Shown: one piece after another, positions 3,785-7,670 of the stretch
How positions within the stretch are numbered: position 1 is the stretch's first letter
How the letters are laid out: each line of letters starts with the position of its first letter
NCBI RefSeq assembly: GCF_014652215.1
Contig: NZ_BMYJ01000006.1
Coordinates: 116,534 to 180,533 of the forward strand
Direction: 5' to 3'
Length of the DNA stretch: 64,000 nt
Origin: Neogemmobacter tilapiae
GTDB taxonomy: Bacteria; Pseudomonadota; Alphaproteobacteria; Rhodobacterales; Rhodobacteraceae
Program-made: the position numbers and the translations under genes
The notes under the pieces: generated by a model
The model's input: only the letters and a program-made list of their open reading frames with translations
Databases searched by the model: none
Told to the model about the DNA's origin: nothing

Positions 3785-4041
3785 CCATAGCTCCCCAGTT
3801 TCTTGTTTTTATTTGTTTTTCGGCGCGTTTTCGTTTTGCGACCGTTTTCTTTCGCCCATCTTGACGATTTTTCAACGTGCCGCAAGATTCGTTCGCGGAA
3901 ATAGTTGACCATCTGGACAAAAACCATTGAAAAGTGTCGAAGTGAAAGGGTTTAGCCCGGAAATGACGCAACGTTACGAAAGGGAAGGGGCCTTGCCCTT
4001 CCGTCGTGACAGGCGCAGGCTTCACCTCAAAGGAGACACCC
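3785..4041. promoter_or_regulatory. Divergent control region, peptide ABC operon / M20 amidohydrolase
   Basis: A 257-base AT-richer region between two divergent transcription units. It holds the palindrome at 3905-3920 and a GC hairpin in the amidohydrolase leader (GGAAGGG 3983-3989 with CCCTTCC 3996-4002). The ribosome binding site AAAGGAGA at about 4029-4036 fixes the M20 start. No protein-coding signal is convincing here. Confidence 0.6.
3905..3920. promoter_or_regulatory. Candidate operator palindrome
   Basis: The sequence TTGACCATCTGGACAA is a 7-2-7 inverted repeat with one mismatched pair. It lies midway in the divergent intergenic region. The shape resembles operators of GntR-family repressors, which often control peptide or amino-acid uptake genes. 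No such regulator gene is in the neighbourhood, so this is inference. Confidence 0.4.
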
Positions 4042-5204
<1,163 letters not shown>

Positions 5205-5208
<4 letters not shown>

Positions 5209-5569
5209 TCGGCGCGGTTCTGGTCGGCCTGATCGCGGCGCTGCATGTCTATATTCTGGTGCTGGAGATGTTCCTGTGGACGAAACCGCAGGGCCAAAAG
5301 GCCTTTAACCTGACACCAGAATTCGCCCAAGCCACCAAATCACTGGCCGCGAACCAGGGACTTTACAACGGCTTTCTGGCGGCGGGGCTGATCTGGGCCT
5401 TGCTGGCGCGAATACCGGGGGCAGGGCAGGGCAGGGCATCGCCCTGTTCTTCTTGACCTGCATTCTGGTGGCAGGCGTTTTCGGAGCTCTGACGGCAGCA
5501 CGCAAGATTCTGTTCATCCAATCCGTGCCCGCGATGTTGGCCCTATTGGCCGTTTGGAGCGGCGTTTAA
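5205..5569 (+). pseudogene. DUF1304 family membrane protein, frameshifted in a GGGCA repeat
   Basis: The first frame (5205-5456) encodes MIGAVLVGLIAALHVYILV..., the start of a small four-helix DUF1304-type membrane protein of unknown function. The reading frame then breaks, and the family-like C-terminal half (GIALFFLTCILVAGVFGALTA...) continues in the +2 frame to a TAA at 5567-5569. The break is exactly at four tandem GGGCA units (5419-5438). Removing one 5-base unit restores one continuous frame of about 119 residues, the normal family length. It is therefore a slipped-strand mutation, a phase-variable state or a sequencing error. The ATG overlaps the M20 stop (ATGA). Confidence 0.75.
5419..5438 (+). 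repeat. Tandem GGGCA x4 microsatellite inside the DUF1304-type gene
   Basis: Four perfect copies of GGGCA lie back to back. The flanking coding frames differ by 5 bases modulo 3, so loss or gain of one unit would switch the gene on or off. This is seen directly in the sequence; the biological switching is inference. Confidence 0.85.
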
Positions 5570-5589
5570 CAACAGTTTCCCGATGGGCT

Positions 5590-6249
5590 TCAACCCAAAA
5601 GGTTCCGTGCCAGGTCGGGAAGCGCGTCGAAATGATGCAGCAAGGCCTCCGGGGTCAGTCGGGCAATGGCTCGGCCTTCGGGCCCAAAGGTCACCAAGGC
5701 CACCGGAACGCCTACCGCCAAACCTGTTTTCCGGTCCGTTTCAGTATCGCCAATCAGCATTGACCGGTCAACCTGCCCTCCGGCACGCATCACCGATGCC
5801 AAATAGGGCGCAGGATCAGGTTTGCGGGTCGGCAATGTGTCAGCCCCGACCAAGGCATCAAACAGATTGCTGATCCCTAGGGCCGCAACCAGCTTTACCG
5901 CCAGCGCCTCGGGCTTATTCGTGCAAATCGCGGTGCGGAAACCATCCGCGCGCAAGGATCGCACCGCCTCTGCTGCGCCAGGATAAAGTCGTGTGTGAAC
6001 GGCAATTGCCGCGTCATAGGCGGCCAAAAGGCGCGGATATTGCGCGGTTTCCAACGCCGGATCGTCGATCCCCAGCCGAGAAAAGCCCAGCCGCAACATG
6101 GCCCGCCCACCGTGGAAGGCGGTGAGGGCATCCTCTGGCCCCAGCAGATTGCCATGCCCCAAATCGCGGAAACAAACATTCGCAGCCGCCAGCAGATCGG
6201 CCGAAGTATCGGCCAAGGTGCCGTCCAGATCAAAGACAACGGTCCGCAT
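5590..6249 (-). CDS. gph: Phosphoglycolate phosphatase, HAD superfamily
   Basis: A 219-residue HAD hydrolase that dephosphorylates 2-phosphoglycolate, made by Rubisco oxygenation or DNA repair. The ATG at 6249 places the catalytic motif FDLDGTLADT at residues 6-15. Further motifs are ICTNKP (motif II), KPDPAPY with the motif III lysine, and GDTETD (motif IV). An upstream in-frame ATG would add 32 residues ahead of the catalytic Asp motif and is unlikely. It is divergent from glmU with 83 bases between starts. Other small sugar-phosphate phosphatases of this class remain possible. Confidence 0.85.
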   Translation of the reverse strand: MRTVVFDLDGTLADTSADLLAAANVCFRDLGHGNLLGPEDALTAFHGGRAMLRLGFSRLGIDDPALETAQYPRLLAAYDAAIAVHTRLYPGAAEAVRSLRADGFRTAICTNKPEALAVKLVAALGISNLFDALVGADTLPTRKPDPAPYLASVMRAGGQVDRSMLIGDTETDRKTGLAVGVPVALVTFGPEGRAIARLTPEALLHHFDALPDLARNLLG

Positions 6250-6332
6250 GCTGTAACCTTCCGTGAGGAACCGCCCCTTGCGGCCTTGCCCCATGCGGGT
6301 AAAACGGGCGCAAGAATAAAGGAAGGGGCAGA

Positions 6333-7670
6333 ATGCAGGTTTCATTGATCATCCTTGCGGCAGGCATGGGTTCGCGGATGAATTCCGACCTGCCCAAGGT
6401 GCTGCACCCACTGGGCGCTGCACCGATGTTGCACCATGCCATGGCCGCCGGAAGGGCGCTGGAGCCGTCGAAGGTGATCGTTGTAACGGGCCATGGGGCG
6501 GAAGCCGTGGCCAAGGCCGCAGCGGCTTTTGACCCGGATGCGATCATCGCCCATCAGACCGAACAACTGGGCACCGGCCATGCCGTGGCGCAGGCCTTGC
6601 CGCATCTTTCGGGCGGCGATGCTGTGGTTCTTTATGGCGACACGCCCTTTGTCACCGCCGATACGCTGGAACGAATGGTCGAGGCGCGGGCGCGTCATGC
6701 GGTGGTGGCGCTTGGCTTTCATGCGGCTGACCCGGGGCGCTATGGCCGGATGTTGGCCGAGGGCGAGGATCTGCAACGCATCGTCGAATGGAAGGATGCC
6801 AGCGACGAACAGCGGGCGATCACCCTGTGCAATTCAGGCCTGATCTGTGCCGAAGCCGCGCTCTTGGCCGAACTGATCGCCGCCGTGGGCAACGACAATG
6901 CGGCGGGGGAATATTATCTGACCGACATCGTGGCCTTGGCCCGCCAGCGTGGCCATTCGGCAGGGGTCGTCATCTGCGACGAAAGCGAAACCCTGGGCAT
7001 CAACACCCGCGCCGAACTGGCGGGGGCCGAGGCCGCTTTTCAGGCGCGGGCGCGTTTGGACGCTTTGGAGGACGGGGTGACATTGACGGCCCCCGAAACC
7101 GTGTTTTTTGCCTTGGATACGTTCATCGGGCGGGATGCGGTGATCGGGCCGAACGTGATTTTCGGGCCGGGCGTGACCATTGAATCGGGGGCCGAGATCA
7201 AGGGCTTCTGCCATCTGGAAGGCTGCCATATCTCGCGCGGGGCGACAGTGGGGCCGTTCGCGCGGCTGCGTCCCGGGGCGGAACTGGCCGAGGATGTGCA
7301 TGTCGGCAACTTTGTGGAAATCAAGAACGCCGTGCTGGACGAAGGGGTCAAGGTGGGCCACCTGACCTATCTGGGCGATGCACAGATCGGTGAGTTTACC
7401 AACATCGGGGCGGGGACGGTGACCTGCAACTATGATGGGGTGATGAAGCACCGCACGGTGATCGGCGCACGGGCTTTTATCGGGTCGGACACCATGCTGG
7501 TGGCCCCGGTGACGGTGGGGGCAGGCGCCATGACGGCAAGCGGTTCGGTGATCACCGAGGATGTGCCGGCCGAGGCTATGGCCGTGGCGCGGTCGCGGCA
7601 GGTGAACAAGGCGGGGCTTGCGGTGCGGTTGATGGAACGGCTGCGGGCGATCAAAGCGGGGAAAGCGTAA
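6333..7670 (+). CDS. glmU: Bifunctional UDP-N-acetylglucosamine pyrophosphorylase / glucosamine-1-phosphate acetyltransferase
   Basis: A 445-residue two-domain enzyme that makes UDP-GlcNAc for peptidoglycan and LPS. The N-terminal uridylyltransferase has the signature LAAGMGSRMNSDLPKVLHPL (GS instead of the usual GT). The C-terminal half (from about residue 245) is a left-handed beta-helix of hexapeptide repeats with the acetyltransferase segment NFVEIKNAVL...YLGDA.IGEFTNIGAGT. A GGAAGGGG site precedes the ATG by 4 bases. The TAA is followed directly by the glmS ATG, so the two consecutive steps of the pathway are co-transcribed. Confidence 0.97.
   Translation: MQVSLIILAAGMGSRMNSDLPKVLHPLGAAPMLHHAMAAGRALEPSKVIVVTGHGAEAVAKAAAAFDPDAIIAHQTEQLGTGHAVAQALPHLSGGDAVVLYGDTPFVTADTLERMVEARARHAVVALGFHAADPGRYGRMLAEGEDLQRIVEWKDASDEQRAITLCNSGLICAEAALLAELIAAVGNDNAAGEYYLTDIVALARQRGHSAGVVICDESETLGINTRAELAGAEAAFQARARLDALEDGVTLTAPETVFFALDTFIGRDAVIGPNVIFGPGVTIESGAEIKGFCHLEGCHISRGATVGPFARLRPGAELAEDVHVGNFVEIKNAVLDEGVKVGHLTYLGDAQIGEFTNIGAGTVTCNYDGVMKHRTVIGARAFIGSDTMLVAPVTVGAGAMTASGSVITEDVPAEAMAVARSRQVNKAGLAVRLMERLRAIKAGKA

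Follow-up and report, generated by a model that had tools for sequence, protein, structure and literature searches.

Familiar examples of simple-sequence contingency loci are the repeat tracts of Haemophilus and the pentanucleotide tracts of the Neisseria opa genes. Such tracts are usually longer than the one considered here, and recur in several genes. To our knowledge, no well-studied simple-sequence contingency locus is known in Rhodobacteraceae, and a literature search joining simple sequence repeats, contingency loci, phase-variable and alphaproteobacteria returned no paper, which does not prove that nothing is in print. In Escherichia coli K-12, one survey reports no pentanucleotide repeats by its criteria (PMC7015867). 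The three-unit 6-bp repeat in mutL of Salmonella is reported to undergo conversion between functional and defective alleles (PMC2955026). Finally, the three-unit repeat of lacI, studied in Pseudomonas putida, is reported to give the largest fraction of lacI-inactivating mutations, by gain or loss of CTGG; which of the two happens is said to depend on how the gene is oriented relative to the replication fork (PMC3485313).

The window, that is, the whole 64,000-nucleotide stretch of Neogemmobacter tilapiae DNA analysed here, contains a DUF1304 gene interrupted at four tandem GGGCA units, and it shares something with each of these systems. Like the E. coli lacI (CTGG)3 hotspot (PMC3485313), the array is a short non-triplet repeat in a coding region, in which one unit more or less breaks the frame; by this analogy, both may be read as mutational hotspots and not as evolved switches. 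It differs from lacI in its 5-base unit, in its four copies (three presumed before) and in the gene concerned, and the repeat is known from sequence alone. The likeness to Salmonella mutL is that of a low-copy tandem repeat in which a change of one unit alters function. However, the 6-bp unit of mutL gives an in-frame change that, according to the report, was followed in culture (PMC2955026), whereas the window has a frameshift in one consensus sequence. With simple-sequence contingency loci, as the survey describes them (PMC7015867), the array has in common that a non-triplet repeat lies within an ORF, the window copy being out of frame. In contrast to such loci, it consists of four units in one gene and is absent from the relatives read.

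Structure of the interrupted DUF1304 gene

The features around the array are the following.

4042..5208, + strand: M20-family amidohydrolase gene (TIGR01891), intact, 388 aa from the ATG at 4042; PF01546 and PF07687; TIGR01891 score 362.7 bits against a cut-off of 153.75 bits
5205..5208, + strand: ATGA, the DUF1304 start over the M20 stop, read from the sequence; also read in the relatives L092, L094, L097, L111, L013, L015 and L016
5205..5456, + strand: N-terminal part of DUF1304, an 83-aa ORF; PF06993 positions 2-65, 98.3 bits, E 3.3e-28
5419..5438, + strand: perfect (GGGCA)x4 at the frame change, read from the sequence; by hydropathy, at the join of hydrophobic segments 2 and 3
5438..5569, + strand: C-terminal part of DUF1304 in the -1 frame; PF06993 positions 71-110 (5438-5566), 43 bits, E 5.1e-11
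5590..6345 (ORF bounds), - strand: HAD-family hydrolase, the convergent downstream neighbour, called as an ORF; PF13419, 92.1 bits

DUF1304 proteins are small membrane proteins of unknown function, about 119 aa long when intact. Both halves of the window gene score above the curated PF06993 cut-off of 26.9 bits, which places the gene in the family by profile score. No single frame continues across the 110 PF06993 positions: positions 2-65 are in one frame and 71-110 in the other, or 65-110 in a search of the whole genome, which recovered these two known pieces and no further DUF1304 copy. The two frames meet at the array (5419-5438, GGGCAGGGCAGGGCAGGGCA), and the four perfect GGGCA units that the preliminary description had placed at the frame change are confirmed. 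The 83-aa ORF leaves the family frame for its final seven residues, RASPCSS, and stops at the TGA at 5454-5456, while the -1 frame is open through to the stop of the family, the TAA at 5567-5569.

The comparison set consists of ten intact DUF1304 genes linked to M20. Seven of them (L092, at the same place as L003, and L093, L094, L096, L097, L100 and L111) were drawn from 30 DUF1304 loci, and three (L013, L015 and L016) from 80 M20 loci. An M20 match was found near DUF1304 in 7 of the 30 loci, about 1,500 bases being examined on each side for most. From its ATG to the family stop, the window gene has 365 nt, against 360 nt in nine of the ten relatives and 354 nt in the tenth (L096), stop included. 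The window gene thus exceeds the common length by one 5-base GGGCA unit; this difference is a whole number of repeat units, as slippage or a recent pseudogene would have it, and the gene is, as previously stated, one unit away from full length. The window copy thus resembles the family in the scores of its two halves and in its neighbourhood, which is that of the intact relatives, and differs in being interrupted and one repeat unit longer.

Hydropathy gives four hydrophobic segments in the intact L092 protein (residues 4-20, 57-73, 77-93 and 100-116), and two are left in the 83-aa product. An AlphaFold2 model from an alignment of three intact relatives (mean pLDDT 60.4, pTM 0.43) is too poor for a fold search; its one use is that it is consistent with two helices being separated at about residues 68-73. 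A sequence search of the PDB with the alignment of the intact relatives gave four matches at E <= 1, the best at E 0.068, which were treated as chance.

Upstream of the lesion, the M20 gene is untouched. It is preceded by a ribosome-binding-like AAGGAG at 4030-4035, and its protein has full-length matches in relatives with identity up to 82%, the nearest being from a Rhodobacteraceae bacterium, Tabrizicola, Rhodobacter and Cypionkella, which would place the window in Rhodobacteraceae. The true start of the HAD-family gene is probably the ATG at 6249. A promoter and terminator scan of 3800-5700 gave no promoter-like site and two terminator-like sites, compared with 2.4 in shuffles. The DUF1304 gene had also been described as translationally coupled to the M20 gene. 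The ATGA overlap on which this was based is real and is kept in 7 of the 10 intact relatives, the two genes being separated by about 150 to 660 bases in L093, L096 and L100; the coupling itself is what such an overlap would suggest.

The array in relatives and in the genome

The relatives compared belong to other genera, the genus itself being represented by one genome. None of the ten intact M20-linked genes has a GGGCA tandem array at the site. The corresponding letters are CCGGGGGCAGGGCGGGAG in the nearest relative, L092, and CCGGGGCAGGGGCAGGCG in L093; the spot is therefore G-rich and loosely repetitive. Among 394 genomes of the family, GGGCAx4 is present in eight, including that of N. tilapiae, and none of the 43 further genomes that carry DUF1304 has it anywhere. 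In the seven other genomes, the tracts are 4 to 6 units long. In genome G326 (L127:1501-1530), six GGGCA units, a longer tract than that of the window, lie inside an open stretch of 302 codons from stop to stop. In genome G345 (L124:1501-1525), five units end 4 bases from the end of the stretch, probably a contig end, so that the repeat would lie at an assembly break. A plasmid search gave 29 records with relatives of the DUF1304 N-terminal half.

The genome comprises 3,620,462 bases in 27 contigs and is 99.78% complete. GGGCAx4 occurs a single time in these 3.62 Mb. Arrays were surveyed in a sample of 460,533 bases, made up of 20 stretches and the window, and compared with one first-order Markov resampling per threshold. 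Apart from the GGGCA array, the sample has no perfect 5-mer array with at least 3 copies, nor any perfect 4-mer array of at least 4 copies or 6- to 8-mer array of at least 3 copies. The resampled sequence contained one 5-mer array of at least 3 copies and none of at least 4. Because it is the sole 5-mer array of its kind in the sample, and resampling gives none of at least 4 copies, the GGGCA array is more than chance and is unusual in its own genome. Shorter repeats in the same sample are not commoner than resampling predicts: homopolymers of at least 8 were observed 17 times versus 62 in resampled sequence (2 versus 13 for at least 10), and dinucleotide tracts of at least 4 copies 39 times versus 102.

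Apparent dispensability of the gene and age of the lesion

DUF1304 is carried by 44 of the 394 family genomes, and in 4 of these 44 (N. tilapiae, G021, G266 and G215) the gene is interrupted or incomplete. In G021, a genome that is 79% complete, the frame changes after a run of seven T (L131:2375-2685), which may point to an error or to a pseudogene. Close to the start of the gene in G266 (L132:2023-2337) stands a TAA, immediately followed by an ATG, and the gene perhaps encodes a shorter protein or is a pseudogene. The copy in G215 lacks the C-terminal half and has other lesions; its sequence is the same as L014, from Rhodobacter calidifons. In L014 (4214-4381; L133 is identical), DUF1304 stands behind the same M20 gene, changes frame early and lacks its C-terminal half. 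Since the lesions differ, those in the four copies look to have arisen independently. The broken frame of the window, which relatives might have shared in a further decayed state, is not shared, and L014 appears to have decayed on its own.

The M20 loci point in the same direction. With the N piece as query, 4 of the 80 gave a match at E 1e-3, namely the intact L013, L015 and L016 and the decayed L014. In five further loci that were read out (L012 and L017-L020), the M20 gene is not followed by DUF1304; these include L012, which has the closest M20 protein (82%). The other 71 loci were searched with the two DUF1304 pieces alone, and some of them end at contig ends. The DUF1304 gene seems dispensable, given that it is carried by 44 of 394 genomes and interrupted or incomplete in 4 of its 44 carriers.

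To place the lesion in time, the N piece (70 codons) and the C piece (43 codons) were compared separately with nine intact relatives. In the nine comparisons, pN was 0.19-0.37 and pS 0.52-0.67 for the N piece; for the C piece, pN was 0.24-0.31 and pS 0.55-0.88, with pN below pS in 9 of 9. Among 36 pairs of intact relatives, mean pN was 0.234 (N) and 0.233 (C). The C-terminal frame thus still looks coding, as judged from its substitutions, and it contains no further stop, as would be the case in a recent pseudogene. Because the downstream frame runs uninterrupted to the family stop and is still coding-like, the lesion would be either recent on a between-genera scale or not real. The pN/pS signal dates it loosely, since the relatives belong to other genera and most of the signal therefore predates any recent event. 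The C piece differs from intact copies a little more (identity 0.51-0.67) than these differ from one another (0.53-0.84), and this extra divergence would fit an older lesion. That the gene has not decayed further would also be expected if it switches or if the sequence is in error.

Origin of the four-unit allele

The preliminary description saw in the array a way to turn the gene on and off by repeat length. Under such phase variation, the DUF1304 protein would be made with 3 or 6 units and not with 4 or 5, units would be gained and lost often enough within a population for this to act as a switch, and selection would keep the tract for that purpose. Several observations agree with this: the coding region has, precisely where the frame changes, a perfect non-triplet repeat able to shift it, (GGGCA)4 at 5419-5438; this array is conspicuous in its own genome; and the rest of the gene is still coding-like. 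Moreover, a tract of only three units in Salmonella mutL is reported to convert functional into defective alleles and back (PMC2955026). However, retention of the repeat in orthologues with varying copy number, as expected of a contingency locus, was seen in none of the ten relatives, all from other genera, nor does GGGCAx4 occur in the genomes of the 43 other carriers. The tract of four units is short; the lacI repeat is reported to be a hotspot with three (PMC3485313). The 460 kb surveyed hold no similar array (no other 5- to 8-mer array of at least 3 copies, no 4-mer array of at least 4), and the MutL-domain gene is in an open frame of 621 aa, which gives no sign of a mutator through MutL loss. 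We consider phase variation quite unlikely, and it is still harder to believe that the array is an evolved low-copy pentanucleotide switch by which a bacterium of the Rhodobacteraceae type reversibly silences a DUF1304 membrane protein whose gene follows that of an M20 amidohydrolase. The earlier account is accurate as a description of the locus, but its switch reading goes beyond the data, and the finding is an ordinary one.

Two other explanations were considered. In the case of a sequencing or assembly error, it would have three units and an intact gene. This would account for the downstream half being coding-like and without a further stop, and for the fact that the sole departure seen is one extra unit in a short repeat. 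On the other hand, a repeat of 15 or 20 bases is easily spanned by one read, and a genome 99.78% complete in 27 contigs fits a good assembly; an error is unlikely. Alternatively, ribosomes might undergo leaky or programmed -1 frameshifting at the G5 run (5417-5421), aided by an RNA hairpin that the repeat would form with the GCCCTG behind it, to give a near-normal protein of 121 aa. The shift required is indeed -1, a GGG codon follows a G at 5417-5420, and for the RNA around the array a fold of -41.3 kcal/mol is predicted (z -2.23), a stability reached by 3 of 200 shuffles. However, the score of this fold is modest and could simply follow from the GC-rich repeat, and the intact relatives need no shift. 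Programmed -1 sites have a slippery X_XXY_YYZ motif before a stimulating structure. The window lacks an in-frame heptamer of this kind, the CCG GGG GCA at 5415-5423 permitting just a single-codon G_GGG slip, and frameshift decoding appears very improbable.

We therefore favour, with a probability of about 0.73, a one-off insertion of one unit by slippage, leading to a recent loss of function, and not an evolved switch. Gain of one unit by slippage is the simplest account. The ancestor presumably had three GGGCA units, and replication slippage in this short tract would have added one unit of 5 bases. The frame would then be lost after hydrophobic segment 2, with translation stopping at 83 aa and yielding a truncated product without segments 3 and 4. 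The RNA hairpin predicted at the array may assist slippage, or a ribosomal -1 slip at the G5 run. Most likely, this is a simple loss-of-function allele of a gene that is often absent or lost in this bacterial family. Like any short-repeat frameshift, the four-unit allele might revert by loss of a unit, which would involve no selection for switching.

In this sense, the locus adds a further example of short-repeat slippage breaking a gene that relatives often do without. It also carries a caution, namely that an off-frame repeat is not always a switch. If, after all, the number of units should vary within a population, an alphaproteobacterium would have a low-copy contingency locus, through which DUF1304, a family of unknown function, could be approached.
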